This document shows positions 1,823 to 6,940 of a DNA stretch of 6,940 bases, piece after piece. The translations under genes were made by a program, and so were the position numbers. The notes beneath the pieces are model-generated. The model saw only the letters and a program-made list of their open reading frames with translations, ran no database searches and had not been told where the DNA came from. The stretch comes from Deltaproteobacteria bacterium (GTDB lineage Bacteria > Desulfobacterota_B > Binatia > UBA9968). Position 1 is the first letter of the stretch. Every line of letters begins with the position of its first letter. The DNA is taken from assembly GCA_030620935.1 (NCBI GenBank), contig JAUXIP010000111.1, positions 1 through 6,940 of the forward strand, written 5' to 3'.

Positions 1823-3082
1823 CTAGAGAAGATGTATTTGACTACCGGCTGTGGCCTGAGACAAAAGCCCCGCCGCGGAGGAGGGAAAGGAGATCTTTCC
1901 GTACACTCCGTCATAGCCGGGCTCCACTTTGACCTCCCCGCGCCGTACCTTAAAGATAGCCTCATGTACCCCTGGCGGGGCATTTTTTCTCAGCTCTTCC
2001 TCCTCCACGTCCAAAAGAATATTCAGCTCAGAGCCGAAGAGGGCAGTGAGCCTCTCATATTCTCGATTGACGGTTTTGGTGCCCGTATTCGTGCCAAAAG
2101 CATGAGCCAGGATCTCTTCCAATGGAATCAAATGCTTGGCGGGAATAGCCCGCGGCGGGCCAACTCCTTCATCTCGGTCTGCCAGGTCATCTACGCGATG
2201 CATGACGCCCACAGTTACCTTGTTTCCACAGACAGGGCAAAGGCCTTTGTGTCGCCTAGTCTCCCCAGGGCTCCAAATGACCCCGCACTTGCGATGACCG
2301 TCGTAGTGGTATTTTCCCTCCTCGGGGAAAAACTCGATGGTAAAAAGGAAAGTCGCCGGATCGTGGCTCTTAATCACCTGAACGATATCTCGATACGTCG
2401 GCGGACAGTCGAAGACGTTCGCCTCCCGTGCAATTTTGCGCGGCGAATGGGCATCGGAGTTGGAAATCAAGGTGACGTTGTCGAGAGCCGAAAGCCGCCA
2501 ATTCATCGCCGGATCTGAAGAGAGGCCGGTCTCGATGGCATGAATATTCTTGGTCTCCTCTTGGAAACACTCTTCTAGAGAGTCGAAGCCGGACTTGGAG
2601 CCGAAGACGGAAAACCACGGGGTCCAAGCGTGTGCCGGGATCAGAAGACAATCGGCTGATAGATCGAGGACAAGCTTTACTAAGTCCTTGGCTGAGGAAG
2701 TAAAGGTTGGACGGCCGTCGGCGCTGAGTTTGCCCCACGAGCGGAGCCGCTGGTTGAGCCTTTCCACGACCGCTAAGTCCGGCGCGACAATGAGAGTATG
2801 GATTTTGCGCAAGCGGCCGGCTTGGTGGTAAATGTTGCACACCTCCACGGTAGGGACAAAATAGGGTCCCTCTCGGCCTCCCTTAAGCCGTAGAAGACCT
2901 CCTTCAGTGCTATCCAGCTTGGCCTTGAGTTCGGCGAAATAGAGCGGATGGGTAAAGTCGCCGGTCCCTAAAAGGTTCACTCCCTTGATCCTAGCCCAGC
3001 GGGCCAGAGCAGTAACTTCCATTTCCGGACTGCAAGCCCGGCTGTAGCGGGAGTGAATATGCAGGTCGGCAATAATGCGCAT
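1823..3082 (-). CDS. Endonuclease Q-like PHP-domain nuclease (EndoQ / TIGR00375 family)
   Basis: EndoQ enzymes nick DNA 5' of deaminated bases (hypoxanthine, uracil) and abasic sites. The best-studied members are archaeal, of about 420 residues, with scattered bacterial ones; this protein has 419. An N-terminal PHP metal site is visible: H8 and H10 in DLHIHS, D42 in GTGDFTHP, E80, H95, H151 in PAHAWTPWFS, and D210/H212 in SNSDAHSP. A zinc-ribbon-like module follows (C266, C282, C285, with H263 or H278 as possible fourth ligand), then VGVMHRVDDLADR and a C-terminal domain to 419. No helicase domain is fused. The ATG at 3082 gives the family start MRIIADLHIHS and lacks a Shine-Dalgarno. It is the first gene of the operon. 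Specificity is inferred from the family. Confidence 0.85.
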   Translation of the reverse strand: MRIIADLHIHSRYSRACSPEMEVTALARWARIKGVNLLGTGDFTHPLYFAELKAKLDSTEGGLLRLKGGREGPYFVPTVEVCNIYHQAGRLRKIHTLIVAPDLAVVERLNQRLRSWGKLSADGRPTFTSSAKDLVKLVLDLSADCLLIPAHAWTPWFSVFGSKSGFDSLEECFQEETKNIHAIETGLSSDPAMNWRLSALDNVTLISNSDAHSPRKIAREANVFDCPPTYRDIVQVIKSHDPATFLFTIEFFPEEGKYHYDGHRKCGVIWSPGETRRHKGLCPVCGNKVTVGVMHRVDDLADRDEGVGPPRAIPAKHLIPLEEILAHAFGTNTGTKTVNREYERLTALFGSELNILLDVEEEELRKNAPPGVHEAIFKVRRGEVKVEPGYDGVYGKISFPSSAAGLLSQATAGSQIHLL

Positions 3083-3094
3083 CGACGATCACGG

Positions 3095-3123
3095 AATATA
3101 GACCACGGGGCGGGATAGGACAA
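3095..3123 (-). promoter_or_regulatory. Predicted sigma-70 promoter of the nuclease operon, very close to the start codon
   Basis: On the minus strand, TTGTCC (3118-3123) and TATATT (3095-3100) are separated by exactly 17 bases. Only 12 bases lie between the -10 box and the ATG at 3082, so transcription would start within a few bases of the start codon. This agrees with the absence of any Shine-Dalgarno and suggests an almost leaderless mRNA. Confidence 0.5.
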
Positions 3124-3175
3124 GAAAAAAATCCAGCGGTCTCTGCAGCCCTTGATCACCAGCCACCCAGGGGCT

Positions 3176-3210
3176 ATGTACTACAGCTGCCGAATGTACT
3201 ATTTAAGTAC
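3176..3210. repeat. ATGTACTA direct repeat and GTACT/AGTAC inverted repeat (possible operator)
   Basis: ATGTACTA occurs at 3176-3183 and again at 3194-3201, an offset of 18 bases. The second copy is the left arm of a perfect inverted repeat, GTACT (3196-3200), ATTTA, AGTAC (3206-3210). It sits 45-79 bases upstream of the LVIVD gene start, in the divergent intergenic region, where a regulator site would be expected. A weak promoter-like pair, TTGATC (3152-3157) and TATGTA (3175-3180), with 17-base spacing, overlaps it. Confidence 0.35.
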
Positions 3211-3254
3211 CGTCTGCGCTGATTGACTCTTTTCAGGAGAAAGGAGATGAGGCT

Positions 3255-4472
3255 ATGGAAGCGCACGCATCGGACCTCCGCGATATGCAAGCGGAGAGTT
3301 ATGCGGAGAAAACGCGGCTGATCGGCCACCATGATCTCGACGGCAGCGGCGATGGGATGCAGGTGGTTAAGCACGGGCAGTATCTATACGTGGCCCATGT
3401 TGGCACCAGCAAGATGGCCCTGTCGATCCTCGACGTCTCCGATCCGTCTAATCCCCTCTTGATCCGCCAGATTCCCCATGTGCCGAACACCCACAACCAC
3501 AAAGTCCAGATCGCCGGCAATACCTTGATCCAGAACAGCGAGTTCATCTCATACATCCCTCAGACAGGCCCTGAAAAGCCTGTGACCGGCCTCAACGTCT
3601 ACAATATCGACGATCCTACCGACCCAAAGCAGGTCGGCTTCCATCCTGTCTGCGGTCGCGGTGTGCACCGCATTTGGTACCGGGAGCCGCCCTACGCCCA
3701 CATCGCTGCGTGGCTCCCGGGTGTGAACGCGCGTGGCTACCAGATCGTCGATCTCTCGGAGCCGGCCGAGCCTAAGATGGCCAGCTGCTGGTGGCTTCCC
3801 GGTACCAAGGAAGGCGATACCGAGGCATGGGTACCCCTCGATCCGAAGCATGACCACTTCCAGGTCCATGGAATCATTCCACAGAGAGACAGGGCCTACG
3901 TCTCCTGCACCGACGCCGGCATGGTTATTCTAGACATCAGCGATGTCGGCTCCCCGAAACTCATCAGCCGGATCAACTGGTGCCCGCCTTATGGCGGCTA
4001 CGCGCACACCTCCATGCCGCTTCCAGGCCGCGGCCTGATGGTTGAAGTATGCGAGTACGTAAGCGGTGGACCAGAGAGGAACGGCGACAAGCGCATCTGG
4101 ATTTTGGATATCCGCGAAGAACGCCAGCCGGTGATGATCAGCAGCTTCCCGGAACCCAAGCCACCCAAAAACTCACCCTGGAAGAGCTTTCACGATTGCC
4201 CTTTGCGCTTCGGCCCTCACAACGTGCATGAAGACTACCCAGACGGCTTCAAGAGCGAAGAGCTGATCTTCTCCACGTGGTTCAATGCCGGCCTGCGCAT
4301 TACCGATATCAGCGAGCCGGACCGGCCGACGGAGGTCGGCTACTACATACCCCCAACACCACCGGGCCAGGAGGCTCCGGTGATCAACGACGTCTACGTC
4401 GATGCCGACGGACTCATTTACTTGACGGATCGCCGCAACGGGGGGTTGTACATCGTCGAGTATGAAGGCTAG
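3255..4472 (+). CDS. LVIVD repeat-containing beta-propeller protein
   Basis: This 405-residue protein consists of repeats typical of the LVIVD family. A strand plus D-x-S/D-x-P turn recurs at 57-70 (SILDVSDPSNPLLI), 114-128 (YNIDDPTDPKQVG), 163-177 (IVDLSEPAEPK), 224-238 (ILDISDVGSPKLIS), 282-296 (ILDIREERQPVMIS) and 348-362 (ITDISEPDRPTEVG), closing with YIVEYEG. That suggests a six- or seven-bladed propeller. There is no signal peptide or membrane segment, so it is probably cytoplasmic. Histidine-rich motifs recur between blades: HNH (80-82), GVHRIW, HDHFQVHG (199-206), YAHTSMP and GPHNVHED. The ATG at 3255 is chosen because AAGGAG (3241-3246) lies 8 bases upstream. The overlapping ATG at 3247 is out of frame. 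The gene appears to be transcribed alone. The biochemical function is unknown. A distant likeness to selenium-binding-protein-type propellers is only a structural guess. Confidence 0.85.
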   Translation: MEAHASDLRDMQAESYAEKTRLIGHHDLDGSGDGMQVVKHGQYLYVAHVGTSKMALSILDVSDPSNPLLIRQIPHVPNTHNHKVQIAGNTLIQNSEFISYIPQTGPEKPVTGLNVYNIDDPTDPKQVGFHPVCGRGVHRIWYREPPYAHIAAWLPGVNARGYQIVDLSEPAEPKMASCWWLPGTKEGDTEAWVPLDPKHDHFQVHGIIPQRDRAYVSCTDAGMVILDISDVGSPKLISRINWCPPYGGYAHTSMPLPGRGLMVEVCEYVSGGPERNGDKRIWILDIREERQPVMISSFPEPKPPKNSPWKSFHDCPLRFGPHNVHEDYPDGFKSEELIFSTWFNAGLRITDISEPDRPTEVGYYIPPTPPGQEAPVINDVYVDADGLIYLTDRRNGGLYIVEYEG

Positions 4473-4511
4473 GAAGAGACCGCTTTTTTGTGAGCTTGCG
4501 TGGGTATATTG

Positions 4512-4535
4512 ACAATACACTGACCAGTGTATTGT
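4512..4535. promoter_or_regulatory. Near-perfect 24-bp palindrome, TetR-type operator candidate
   Basis: The arms ACAATACACTG (4512-4522) and CAGTGTATTGT (4525-4535) are perfect reverse complements around a central AC. No U-run follows, so it is not a terminator. It overlaps a TTGACA (4509-4514) and lies 22 bases before a better promoter. Size and symmetry resemble TetR-family operators, but no regulator gene is in the window. Confidence 0.55.
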
Positions 4536-4556
4536 GGTGGCTTAGAGGCGTTGGGT

Positions 4557-4584
4557 TTGACAAGTCATTGAGATGACGAATAAT
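4557..4584 (+). promoter_or_regulatory. Predicted sigma-70 promoter upstream of the protease gene
   Basis: A consensus TTGACA (4557-4562) is followed after 16 bases by AATAAT (4579-4584), one base off the -10 consensus. It points toward the gene at 4675 and would give a leader of about 85 bases. It lies between the two related palindromic sites (4512-4535 and 4614-4635), which would place one upstream and one just inside the transcript. Confidence 0.5.
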
Positions 4585-4613
4585 TTCGACAATGTTATGG
4601 ATCTTAATTACCG

Positions 4614-4635
4614 CAATACACCGGTCAGTATACTC
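4614..4635. promoter_or_regulatory. Second, degenerate copy of the palindromic site
   Basis: CAATACAC (4614-4621) repeats exactly the start of the palindrome at 4513-4520. Over 22 aligned bases 16 match. Its own symmetry is imperfect (CACCG, GT, CAGTATAC). The two copies are 101 bases apart in the same orientation and flank the predicted promoter. A low-affinity second operator is one reading. A left and right arm of an older recombination site is another, because GGTCAG of this copy can pair with CTGACC of the first. Confidence 0.4.
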
Positions 4636-4640
4636 ACTAG

Positions 4641-5765
4641 TTATACAGCAAAAACTATTTCATGCAGTCCATGAATGGCATCCGTACCAGACACGACCGT
4701 GAACCCTTCGCTCCTAGCCTCAACATGGAAAACGCCCGTCTTGGTTGGCGGCCTCTGCTTTCTGCTGGTCTGGCGATCGATCTCGTTCGTTGATAGCGAC
4801 TGGCTAACCGTAATTCCTTCTTGGCTCCTCCTTGCGATTGCCGGCATCATTCCGCAACTCTTCCTGTTGATCTATCCCCTCGTTACGCGCCAACAGGCCT
4901 CCGCCACTCGTTTCCGTTTGCCCCGATTGAAACGTCTCGCCATAGAAGCCGTGATCGCACTTCCAATCATTGTTGGCTGCGTTCTTCTTCTCACGATCGT
5001 CGAGTACGCACTTTCCCGCCTGTCCCCGGGGACATCGCTCTATCCAGAGTTCATGGAACGCATGGGTCGATCACCGGGTACTCCATTTGTCTACGCGTTT
5101 CTACTCGCTTCTTTCCTGTACGGCCCAATCGCTGAGGAAGTCTTCTTTCGGGGCTTCCTTTTTAACGCTTTCCGTAAACGGATGCCGCTCGTCGCTGCGG
5201 TTGTCGTGCAATCGCTCATCTTCGGTTTTGCCCACTTCTACGGCTCCTCGCATGCCTTTGCCGTAGCCTTCTTGGGCCTCGTGCTCACGTTGGTTTATTG
5301 GTGGCGGCAAACGATTTTTGCTCCCATATTCGTCCACGCTGGTTTCAACGCACTCGCCGTAGCCGGTGTCCTACTTACAATGTACGCCCATTCAAACTCT
5401 GCATTTCTTGGTGTCTCGCCACAGGAACCAGTGACAGAAAATGTCATCGGAACGGTCACACCCAATTCGCCTGCAGCCGAATCGGGGCTCCGTCCCGGTG
5501 ATACGATCACGCATTTTGACACTCATCCGGTGACGGACTTTCAAAACCTCGCTGAAACCGTAAGCTGGTATGAACCCGGTGACTCTGTTGTCGTAACGGT
5601 GGTTCGTGATGGGATACCCATCGACATCACCGTCATTCTTACTTCCCGCCGTGCCATGTCCACCCAGTAATCGGAATGCCGTATAACAAATCGCTCAACC
5701 AGAGCGGCGGTTGGGCGCCGAATCTGCGATTGAGAGTCACTGGCCGCCGCCCGGTTAGCTTTGGG
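4641..5765 (+). mobile_element. Candidate integron-type gene cassette carrying the CPBP-PDZ protease
   Basis: An inserted cassette begins with the last six bases of a GTTRRRY core and ends at the G of its own attC. The left core of that attC is complementary to the cassette's first bases. Here G-TTATAC at 4640-4646 is the exact reverse complement of GTATAAC at 5681-5687, which begins the attC-like site after the gene. The implied unit of 1125 bases holds a single gene in the usual orientation. Its start codon is 34 bases from the boundary and its stop is 10 bases before the attC. There is no integrase gene in the window, and no convincing attC or attI on the left side. The case is suggestive, not proven. 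Confidence 0.45.
4675..5670 (+). CDS. CPBP-family (CAAX-type) intramembrane metalloprotease with C-terminal PDZ domain
   Basis: This is a 331-residue inner-membrane protein. Hydrophobic segments lie at about 21-38, 46-70, 88-112, 136-152, 170-188, 192-209 and 214-236. Three CPBP/Abi motifs are present: E154-E155-x3-R159 (EEVFFRG), F183-x3-H187 (FGFAH) and H221-x3-N225 (HAGFN), all with key residues intact, so it should be active. Residues from about 250 to 326 form a PDZ domain (GTVTPNSPAAESGLRPGDTI, then a VVVTVVRDG strand), probably exposed outside the membrane core to present substrate. A TGA lies immediately before the ATG at 4675, so the start cannot be further upstream. No Shine-Dalgarno is visible. 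It stands alone between a possible cassette start and an attC-like site. Family members process membrane or secreted peptides, or act in bacteriocin self-immunity. The substrate here is unknown. Confidence 0.9.
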   Translation: MASVPDTTVNPSLLASTWKTPVLVGGLCFLLVWRSISFVDSDWLTVIPSWLLLAIAGIIPQLFLLIYPLVTRQQASATRFRLPRLKRLAIEAVIALPIIVGCVLLLTIVEYALSRLSPGTSLYPEFMERMGRSPGTPFVYAFLLASFLYGPIAEEVFFRGFLFNAFRKRMPLVAAVVVQSLIFGFAHFYGSSHAFAVAFLGLVLTLVYWWRQTIFAPIFVHAGFNALAVAGVLLTMYAHSNSAFLGVSPQEPVTENVIGTVTPNSPAAESGLRPGDTITHFDTHPVTDFQNLAETVSWYEPGDSVVVTVVRDGIPIDITVILTSRRAMSTQ

Positions 5766-5771
5766 TTCGCC
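5681..5771 (+). other. attC-like recombination site
   Basis: The arms fold in attC order. R'' is GTATAAC (5681-5687) and L'' is GCTCAACC (5693-5700). GCGGCGG (5704-5710) pairs with CCGCCGC (5744-5750). L' is GGTTAGC (5753-5759) and R' is GTTCGCC (5765-5771). R and L boxes are separated by 5 bases on both sides (the unpaired central spacer). L'' has one extra C (5696) relative to L', as at the extrahelical base of known attC sites such as aadA7. R' departs from GTTRRRY, but all of it after the G would belong to the neighbouring DNA. It begins 10 bases after the protease stop codon, where an attC belongs. Confidence 0.5.
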
Positions 5772-5821
5772 CCATGGATACTCCGGCGAGTTTCGAACCC
5801 CAGACCGCTCTCGAACGCTCG

Positions 5822-5923
5822 CTAGTCGCTCCGTAGCGGTGGGACACCGCGCCACCCGTTGAGGGGGCAGGAATCGCAGCGCGGGCGGCTGCGGCAGAAG
5901 GACCCTTTTCGATGCCTGTTGAC
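5822..5923 (-). pseudogene. 3'-end fragment of an endonuclease III-like (HhH-GPD) glycosylase gene, copy A
   Basis: On the minus strand, ending at TAG 5822-5824, the frame reads FCRSRPRCDSCPLNGWRG then VPPLRSD. This is the cysteine-rich tail of Nth-like DNA glycosylases, with three of the usual four iron-sulfur cluster cysteines. The fourth is not at the normal spacing (Arg follows PLNGW). Likeness to copy B (6614-6817) runs from about 5837 to the VN codons at 5918-5923 and fades beyond, with a two-codon insertion before FC. Nothing of the catalytic helix-hairpin-helix domain remains, so it is a remnant. The antitoxin promoter lies in its truncated edge. Confidence 0.7.
5841..5900. repeat. 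Direct repeat, copy A (partner at 6627-6686)
   Basis: These 60 bases align without gaps to 6627-6686 at about 46 of 60 positions by hand count. Together the two copies bracket the toxin-antitoxin pair. They lie 786 bases apart in the same orientation and correspond to the glycosylase 3'-end remnants. Confidence 0.8.
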
Positions 5924-5947
5924 TGATATGGATAGGATTGATAAATT
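5919..5947 (+). promoter_or_regulatory. Predicted promoter of the toxin-antitoxin operon
   Basis: TTGACT (5919-5924) and TAAATT (5942-5947) are 17 bases apart, giving a leader of about 22 bases before the antitoxin ATG. The -35 box falls at the inner edge of the glycosylase remnant. TGTC (5947-5950) and GACA (5962-5965) form a weak inverted repeat just downstream, which could be part of an antitoxin operator. Confidence 0.5.
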
Positions 5948-5975
5948 GTCTGTATCTTATGGACAGGGGGTCGAT

Positions 5976-6170
5976 ATGAAGGCCACGGTAAGAAAGAAAA
6001 CCTACAACCTGGATGGAGAGATGATCGATAAGGTCCGGCGGCTGTTCAACGTAAAGACCGATACGGAGGCTATTCACAAGGCGCTGCAGAAGACCGCTGA
6101 GGACCGAGAGACCGAGGAGGCCTTGGAAAGACTGCTCAGAGAGGGACGCTTTCGGACCATTTATCGGTGA
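5976..6170 (+). CDS. VapB-type antitoxin (ribbon-helix-helix-like)
   Basis: This 64-residue protein is predicted to neutralise the PIN toxin encoded next to it and to repress the operon. Residues 5-12 (VRKKTYNL) fit the DNA-binding strand of a ribbon-helix-helix fold. Residues 14-24 and 28-43 (KTDTEAIHKALQ) fit its two helices. The acidic helix 43-56 and the tail GRFRTIYR are a likely toxin-binding segment. The frame is open back to 5859, but that upstream part is glycosylase remnant read in the opposite sense. The ATG at 5976 is preceded by AGGGGG (5965-5970) at 5 bases and gives the normal antitoxin size. Its TGA overlaps the toxin's GTG start in GTGA, a coupling usual for such pairs. Confidence 0.82.
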   Translation: MKATVRKKTYNLDGEMIDKVRRLFNVKTDTEAIHKALQKTAEDRETEEALERLLREGRFRTIYR

Positions 6171-6598
6171 AATATCTCCTCGATACCAACGTCTATCTTG
6201 GCGCCTTTCGATCCGAGTACAAAAAGGCACAATTCAGGCACACCTTTTTCCCGCTTTTACCTGCCAGCTTTCTTTCCTCAGTGGTCGCCTACGAGCTTTA
6301 CGTCAATGCCCGAGATAACCGCACCCGTACTTTGATGAAAGAGTTTGTTCGCCCAATGGAGCAAGCTGGGCGAGTCATAGCGCCCGCATTTGATGACTGG
6401 GTCGAGGCGTCTGCCATCGCAACAGGGATTGAGCAGAAAGACAGGGGTTGGCGCTCAAAGCTTCCCACCCTTTTGAATGATATCCTCATCGCGCTCTGCG
6501 CGCGCAGGATCGGGGCGACGCTCCTGACCTATAACAGGGACGATTTTCGTCTCATCCGCCGCCACAAGGATTTTTCTCTGCGTGTGCTTGCCGAATAG
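6167..6598 (+). CDS. vapC: PIN-domain ribonuclease toxin, VapC family
   Basis: The family cuts specific RNAs (often initiator tRNA or 23S rRNA) using magnesium bound by four acidic residues. The 143 residues show D6 in KYLLDTNV, E43 in VVAYELYV, D105 in LPTLLNDILIA and D125 in LLTYNRDDF, the full PIN set in order, so activity is likely intact. The start is GTG at 6167, overlapping the antitoxin stop by 4 bases. An ATG start is not available before the conserved LLDTN motif, so GTG is chosen. Length is normal for VapC. No terminator is visible after the TAG; the gene ends 15 bases before the second glycosylase remnant. The target RNA cannot be told from sequence. Confidence 0.92.
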   Translation: MKYLLDTNVYLGAFRSEYKKAQFRHTFFPLLPASFLSSVVAYELYVNARDNRTRTLMKEFVRPMEQAGRVIAPAFDDWVEASAIATGIEQKDRGWRSKLPTLLNDILIALCARRIGATLLTYNRDDFRLIRRHKDFSLRVLAE

Positions 6599-6613
6599 TC
6601 GGCGTTCTCGGCC

Positions 6614-6817
6614 TCAGGGCAGCGGGGGGACGCCACGCCAGCCGTTGAGAGGGCAGGAACTACAGAGCGGCTTGGTCCGACAGAAGTCTTTTCCCACATT
6701 GACCAGCATGGCGTGGTACTGGTTGTATAGGGCCACGTCGGCAGGAAGCGATTTCATAAAAAGCTGCTGGGGTGGAAGAAAAGGGATCGGGAGTCTTTTT
6801 GATGCAAAGCTCTCGCC
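6614..6817 (-). pseudogene. 3'-end fragment of an endonuclease III-like (HhH-GPD) glycosylase gene, copy B
   Basis: The minus-strand frame ends at TGA 6614-6616 and is open back to a TGA at 6818-6820. From about 6763 it reads LFMKSLPADVALYNQYHA, then MLVNVGKDFC, RTKPLCSSCPLNGWRG and VPPLP. This is the last helix and iron-sulfur tail of Nth-like base-excision glycosylases (LPxDVALYNxYHALLV is a familiar pattern). Upstream of that the frame no longer looks like the family, and the helix-hairpin-helix and catalytic Asp region is missing. A one-base shift would keep another frame open further right, so a frameshifted, longer remnant is possible. An ATG at 6757 could make a 47-residue peptide, but it would have no enzymatic domain. 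Confidence 0.72.
6627..6686. repeat. Direct repeat, copy B (partner at 5841-5900)
   Basis: This is the same 60-base block as 5841-5900, starting 29 bases after the toxin stop codon. Within the shared codons for CPLNGWRGVPPL, all six base differences between the copies are synonymous. Confidence 0.8.
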
Positions 6818-6820
6818 TCA

Positions 6821-6940
6821 GACCGATCACGGCGGCGGCTGAGCTTGCGTTTTGCTTAAGACAGCAAGGATTCGGCGGGGATAGCTAGGTGCTTATGTAA
6901 AGATCGCATCATACCGACAGTGAGCTTCCTTTTTTTGTTG
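6821..6940. other. Right-end stretch without recognisable gene
   Basis: These 120 bases carry no convincing gene, RNA or terminator. The closest things to signals are a T7 run at 6930-6936 without a preceding strong hairpin, and an 18-codon minus-strand frame after an AAGGAAG. Neither is convincing. A gene may begin beyond the window edge. Confidence 0.5.

Follow-up and report, generated by a model that had tools for sequence, protein, structure and literature searches.

Integrative elements that target the 3′ ends of genes, among them tRNA genes, the tmRNA gene and some protein genes, carry a substitute end with them. Displaced 3′ ends have also been described in the immunity arrays of Vibrio T6SS loci and as Rhs orphan ends, for which one study proposes, and does not show, homology-facilitated illegitimate recombination (PMC5361080); the same process is proposed for arrays of displaced 3′ ends in another (PMC3240628). 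As outlined in the former, a shared gene anchors the incoming module, the old 3′ end is shifted downstream and repeats of the event build an array. The locus described here is similar in these respects. It lies in a stretch of 6,940 nucleotides from a Deltaproteobacteria bacterium, which we refer to as the window, and it differs from that outline in that its anchor is a repair gene, not intact in the window, and its cargo is a type II toxin–antitoxin pair. Like 3′-end integrative elements, it has its cargo flanked by two copies of a gene end, in the same orientation and each with a stop codon; it departs from them in that the window ORFs scanned include no integrase, an exact core was not found and the copies start at unequal points. 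Likewise, a chromosomal integron is apparently held at the same junction by a relative (G003), but no intI is present among the window ORFs scanned, nor is any attC site significant. Within a limited literature search we found no report of insertions at this glycosylase gene, and the available text of two papers (PMC8547433 and PMC4246890) has no bearing on them. Traces in the form of displaced gene ends have been recognized before; the combination of a glycosylase site with vapBC cargo is apparently new, at least to us. The reading that we favor, with a probability of roughly 45%, is that vapBC arrived with a donor glycosylase 3′ end through one-sided homologous recombination, displacing the native end, and that a second round followed.

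Read from left to right, the window holds atpE (113–436), a dCMP deaminase gene, a SAM hydroxide adenosyltransferase gene, a PHP-domain gene, genes for an LVIVD-repeat protein and a CPBP protease with a PDZ domain, a first glycosylase remnant (tail 1), vapBC, a second remnant (tail 2) and, tentatively, the C-terminal end of a HigA-like antitoxin gene (6856–6939, minus strand). This last gene runs off the window, the right edge of which lies only 170 bases beyond tail 2. The SAM-dependent and dCMP deaminase genes abut at 948–951, without the site-2-protease-like ORF, recognized by eye, that lies between them in L002, L004, L005 and L067 (about 310 amino acids, or 356 in L004 as called). The PHP-domain protein (1823–3082, minus strand) has 76–78% identity to those of relatives, its match to PHP_C being weak and below the cut-off, and its gene is accompanied by a promoter-like sequence (3083–3132, minus strand) with a T-run, TTGTCC and TATATT.

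Tail 1 (5822–5900, minus strand) consists of the last 25 codons and the stop codon of an endonuclease III-like glycosylase gene, with coding sequence at 5825–5899, the stop at 5822–5824 and the product FCRSRPRCDSCPLNGWRGVPPLRSD. Tail 2 (6614–6770, minus strand) comprises the last 51 codons and the stop codon of a gene of the same family (coding sequence 6617–6769, stop 6614–6616, product QQLFMKSLPADVALYNQYHAMLVNVGKDFCRTKPLCSSCPLNGWRGVPPLP). The two same-orientation blocks on which the earlier note was built, 5841–5900 and 6627–6686, are indeed identical at 46 of 60 positions, and they belong to a 66-nt repeat on the same strand (5835–5900 and 6621–6686) with 51 of 66 positions identical; 20,000 shuffles gave a mean of 20.5 and a maximum of 34. 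Both blocks encode, as that note had it, the minus-strand end of a glycosylase gene with vapBC between them, and they come from a single gene family, not from unrelated genes. Its account of tail 2 was right as to the gene and too short as to the extent, since homology to intact genes reaches about 6770 before it ends. In tail 1 the homology ends at 5900. A continuation of tail 1 upstream toward vapB was considered and rejected, as shuffles did equally well in 227, 66, 94 and 238 of 500 cases against L001–L004, respectively, and in 83 of 500 against tail 2. Glycosylase homology to the right of 6770 was also rejected: shuffles were as good in 5 of 300 cases for L002 but in 161, 83 and 192 of 300 for L001, L003 and L004. 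The sequence beside tail 1 has no detectable homology to the glycosylase gene and constitutes a non-homologous joint, a loose end of the kind that one-sided homologous recombination requires. Neither tail belongs to an intact gene within the window, where the body of the glycosylase gene is absent.

The borders of the tails bear on whether a recombinase placed vapBC here. On such an account, a recombinase-bearing element would have entered the glycosylase 3′ end with a substitute end and later shrunk to vapBC as an addiction module. Both copies of the repeat begin with CTTCTG, as might be expected of such an element, and part of the short stretch that joins tail 1 to the vapBC unit (5901–5918) has a counterpart beside tail 2, within or adjacent to a dispersed repeat motif (see below): 5901–5915 and 6791–6805 are identical at 12 of 15 positions, and when the two flanks are compared 5 of 500 shuffles do equally well. 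However, the 6 exact bases are followed by mismatches, no exact long core was found where the repeat starts in tail 1 and tail 2, and the starting points of the displaced ends are unequal: tail 1 begins at the FC codon, tail 2 begins 28 codons before FC, and the displaced end of a parallel case, L024 (see below), about 36 codons before. The earlier note had suggested looking for an integrase nearby, and this search came back empty: none was found among the 8 window ORFs scanned, with only vapB and vapC recognized between the tails. We consider entry by a site-specific recombinase unlikely. Because no integrase, exact core or common starting point was found, one-sided homologous recombination fits better, although the two processes predict a nearly identical picture; loose joining predicts unequal start points, so these count in favor of one-sided recombination, whereas the similar short sequence after both tails is not predicted by loose joining alone and counts against it.

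To place the tails within their gene family, tails 1 and 2 were aligned with a 63-residue metagenomic protein and the alignment was used to scan genome contigs. Forty-five stretches fit the pattern, and relatives are encoded at 25 loci, five of which (L001–L005, all from Deltaproteobacteria MAGs) have an end of the form CPLxGWRxVPP. The intact gene encodes about 223 residues; the models closest to it are those for 3-methyladenine glycosylase and endonuclease III, with scores below every curated cut-off. In a protein search that scored 7999 candidates and yielded 5569 matches, of which the best 120 were analyzed, NGWRGVPPL occurs in 52 of those 120 and CPLxGWRxVPP in 101, and 4 of the 120 are named as Candidatus Binatota or Binatia. 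A close copy is confined to the same five genomes, both in a set of 145 relatives of G001 and in 148 genomes of the class to which G001 belongs; in viral contigs, 18 stretches fit the pattern of the tail and none was confirmed. Two intact glycosylase genes in tandem, the arrangement that would have spoken against displacement, were not seen in the five relatives with the gene, which have one copy each; the single copy of G005 is split across two overlapping contigs, and in G004 a further, incomplete copy (223 of 250 nt identical) lies at the end of a contig. The contigs of relatives often end near the glycosylase gene, which invites the thought that the window is itself an assembly artefact, a metagenomic contig that fuses pieces of two species. 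Against this, G004 and G001 contain matches to vapBC as well as to the core genes of the window, and the same anatomy occurs in L024, so we regard such a fusion as very improbable.

The divergence of the tails is informative about their origin. Tail 1 and tail 2 are 75.8% identical over 66 nt, and 10 of their 16 differences fall at third codon positions (P 0.016). The ten pairs of orthologues are 74.7–80.0% identical over 150 nt and 77.3–84.8% over the same 66 nt, where the tails are slightly more different than any pair. The divergence of the tails is thus close to that between genes from separate species and falls mostly at third positions, which suggests that they diverged largely inside working genes. 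Compared with the five orthologues over 66 nt, tail 1 is 78.8–86.4% identical, within the range of the orthologues themselves, and tail 2 is 71.2–78.8% identical (72.7–78.0% over 150 nt). Tail 1 is the closer in all five cases (86.4 versus 78.8, 80.3 versus 75.8, 80.3 versus 78.8, 78.8 versus 71.2 and 81.8 versus 72.7%), and all 25 of its residues are identical to the ends of the metagenomic proteins P0045, P0047 and P0051. A native-looking end thus lies beside the cargo, in agreement with what the idea of displacement had led one to expect; judged by these identities, tail 1 is probably the displaced native end of the glycosylase gene, which would suit a site-specific element as well. The low identity of tail 2 to the orthologues may reflect a foreign origin, in keeping with its being the probable incoming 3′ end, itself cut off, or partial drift after it was severed.

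The composition of tail 2 was examined on either side of its FCR motif, for which 119 of the 120 listed proteins could be anchored. Before FCR, tail 2 is identical at 27 of 28 positions to P0045, P0047, P0051, P0061 and P0117, its nearest neighbors among the listed proteins; after FCR it matches P0045, P0047 and P0051 at 15 of 19, and others among the listed proteins are nearer, at 17 of 19. This immediate departure from the nearest listed proteins would favor a substitute end brought by a site-specific element, but the stretch after FCR is variable across the family anyway. As a test for a hybrid it is unremarkable, a conflict as large being found in 40 of 98 natural rows and in 14 of the 61 with an equally close neighbor. 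Of the 57 natural pairs that share 26 or more of the 28 residues before FCR, 7 also have at most 15 of 19 after it, and at a threshold of at least 27 the figure is 1 of 28. Furthermore, P0048 is a natural protein that is close to tail 2 over its entire length. The unremarkable test, the likeness to P0048 and the possibility that tail 2 has drifted all count against our favored account of an incoming donor end.

The cargo itself is ordinary. The antitoxin gene vapB (5976–6170, plus strand; PF09957, 25.8 bits against a cut-off of 23.4) overlaps the PIN-domain toxin gene vapC (6167–6598, plus strand; PF01850, 29.3 bits against 23.6), and such adjacent VapB antitoxin and PIN toxin genes identify the pair, by sequence, as a vapBC toxin–antitoxin module of type II. 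Overlapping pairs of this kind occur elsewhere in the chromosomes of relatives too: at a threshold of E 1e-10, 32 of 145 genomes encode VapC relatives, the best with 84% (G004) and 77% (G001) protein identity. By blastn, the module as conserved in relatives spans 5919–6588 (plus strand), with matches of 83.9% over 671 nt in L124, 76.2% over 664 nt in L125 and 76.8% over 164 nt in L128, where the copy is broken; in all three the match starts at window position 5919. Tail 2 lies 15 bases after vapC and tail 1 lies 18 bases before the vapBC unit. No tail is present at six vapBC loci of relatives (L124–L129), where tail matches are at chance level, from which it follows that the tails belong to this place and not to the vapBC module; this also argues against a site-specific element of which vapBC would be the remainder.

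One parallel to the window was found in another phylum. In L024, from a Hydrogenedentes MAG, an intact glycosylase gene (1265–1951) is followed by a WD40-repeat gene (1970–3847) and then by a second 3′ end (4074–4257), a 184-bp duplicate of the end of the gene with 82.6% identity. This displaced copy is closer than the gene's own end to both relatives compared, G154 and G155 (85.9 versus 81.6% and 82.6 versus 78.7%), and its match to them continues 7 and 14 bases past the stop codon, whereas for the gene's own end the match breaks off about ten bases before the stop. The anatomy is that of the window and would suit a recombinase-bearing element too, but no integrase was found in the three L024 ORFs scanned. 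L024 is the only one of the 25 loci with a second 3′ end, 22 of the 25 spanning at least 2 kb downstream, and among 61 genomes with a match (68 in its class) a second end is seen only in G149, in a search that very short tails would escape. Short matches in G186, G188 and G175 were rejected as second ends, being contig overlaps (98.2% over 394 nt and 100% over 55 nt) or contig-end pieces. Displacement of the gene end is thus rare, yet it is not confined to the window; its rarity counts against the reading that we prefer.

The sequence downstream of the glycosylase gene in relatives shows what the junction may have looked like. The search for intact genes with cargo after the stop codon, which the earlier note had called for, was borne out in part: the gene was found in five relatives, with extra DNA after its end in one of them and in the window, and with the PHP gene directly next in three of the five, at 45 (L001), 62 (L004) and 52 (L005) bases from the glycosylase stop codon. 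In these three the PHP promoter lies directly 3′ of that stop codon. In L002 the glycosylase gene is followed by the SAM-dependent gene, and in L003 by about 500 bases and then an integron integrase whose start is in a second, overlapping frame. The promoter is conserved between the window and L004, L005 and L067 (0 of 300 shuffles as good in each case) and L001 (9 of 300). Since it is kept in the window and in L067, which carries the G003 PHP gene and promoter on another contig, the extra DNA sits between the glycosylase end and the promoter in both. In the window this DNA amounts to 3.5 kb from the promoter to tail 2 and 2.7 kb from the promoter to tail 1; the distance of the promoter from tail 1 counts against the favored reading, although other cargo may have come to lie between them. 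Candidate promoter copies downstream of either tail or of the L003 gene were rejected (45 to 499 of 500 shuffles as good).

The apparent arrangement at this junction in G003 raises the possibility that the extra DNA of the window is an integron cassette array, with vapBC as a cassette and the tails as accidents. The G003 integrase (L003:6667–7699; TIGR02249, E 3e-124) is split over two overlapping frames, and the G003 contig with the PHP gene (L067, G003:C3) has one strong attC upstream of that gene (score 11.3, 1 of 100 shuffles) together with cassette-like ORFs (GmrSD_N, DUF2283 and a zinc-ribbon-like protein); G003 therefore appears to hold an integron at the glycosylase/PHP junction, and its integrase has matches in 43 of 145 relatives. 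However, the two G003 halves are on separate contigs that are not joined by sequence, and the window has no integrase in the ORFs scanned. Its best attC-like site, a hairpin 3′ of the CPBP gene (5681–5771, plus strand), scores 4.7, a value reached in 48 of 100 cases when the whole window is shuffled and in 30 of 100 when positions 3131–6940 are, and none is listed after vapC; the same purpose-made scanner finds 18 other sites with a score of at least 7 in 9 of 20 integrase-bearing loci and in L067. We know of no integron cassettes that carry gene 3′ ends, which we also count against a cassette origin, and we judge it quite improbable here.

The remaining genes of the extra DNA have varied affinities. 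The LVIVD-repeat protein (3255–4472, plus strand; PF08309), encoded between the PHP promoter and tail 1, has matches in 34 of 145 relatives at E 1e-20, with full-length identity up to 58%. In G007:C102, G018:C44, G011:C72 and other relatives, more distant LVIVD-repeat genes lie directly 3′ of a more distant Nth-like gene. The CPBP–PDZ protease (4675–5670, plus strand; PF02517 and PF13180) has weak and partial matches in 2 of 145 relatives, no match on plasmids, and 39 metagenome and genome matches at E 1e-20 (7998 candidates scored), one of them 99% identical and on a 2134-base contig. The HigA-like end, a 27-residue fragment, has no Pfam or PDB match; 53 plasmid records match it weakly, with E 0.03–0.5 among the 12 listed, one of which is annotated as a HigA family antitoxin. 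At the 5′ edge of tail 2 lies a copy of a dispersed repeat motif, GAAAAGGGRTCGGGAGTYTTTT (6775–6799, plus strand), with 12 matches at two or fewer mismatches in 6 of 8 genomes and none for the reversed control; 25 nt of it are common to the window and L125, and it is present in five viral contigs. The motif was rejected as the end of a Y1 transposon, no copy being found at 30 Y1_Tnp loci among the 39 matches listed. Separately, Y1 transposase genes in L179, L189 and L194 are flanked by inverted GGGGTCAGGTCTTG-like repeats about 900 bases apart.

This layering of cargo (LVIVD, CPBP, vapBC and HigA-like), together with the motif at the edge of tail 2, is what one would expect if the tails were simply leftovers from many rounds of exchange and deletion in an old island and were not linked by any one insertion of vapBC. 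The differing lengths of the tails and the unremarkable hybrid test point the same way. Nonetheless, both tails retain their stop codon and orientation and closely flank one module, at 15 and 18 bases, and in L024 a single cargo gene lies between the gene and its displaced end; we therefore doubt that unconnected debris accounts for the locus.

In the sequence of events that we infer for one-sided recombination, the junction after the glycosylase stop codon would gather foreign DNA, and vapBC would have been carried in on a fragment from a related species along with that species' glycosylase 3′ end. At one end of the fragment, homologous recombination would have been anchored in the shared glycosylase gene, and the other end would have been joined with little homology inside the recipient's glycosylase gene, so that the recipient's own end (tail 1) was severed, shifted downstream and replaced by the incoming end (tail 2). 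Tail 2 would then have been severed in its turn by another event of this kind, coming from the right with the HigA-like gene. The HigA-like end beyond tail 2 suggests such a second round, which would explain why the gene body, whose absence otherwise counts against this sequence of events, is missing after tail 2; a working glycosylase gene, if one survives, would lie beyond the window. The earlier note had proposed that vapBC entered by recombination at a glycosylase 3′ end or that the pair of tails traces repeated insertions. The single gene family, the extra DNA at the junction, the native-like tail 1 and the parallel in L024 uphold this proposal in part, and the integrase, exact core, constant starting point, tails at other vapBC loci and adjacent PHP promoter that would have completed it were not found.

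It is tempting to view the glycosylase 3′ end as a place where foreign genes enter again and again, in two phyla or more, with every new cargo coming attached to the donor's version of the gene end, so that the number and divergence of stacked ends record the order of arrivals and their donors; we hold this broader view to be unlikely at present. If the displacement account is right, gene-end remnants would make it possible to read how a chromosomal site has gained genes over time, and to glimpse the donors, in uncultured bacteria and without the need for a recombinase gene, and a toxin–antitoxin pair would have been retained at such a site.
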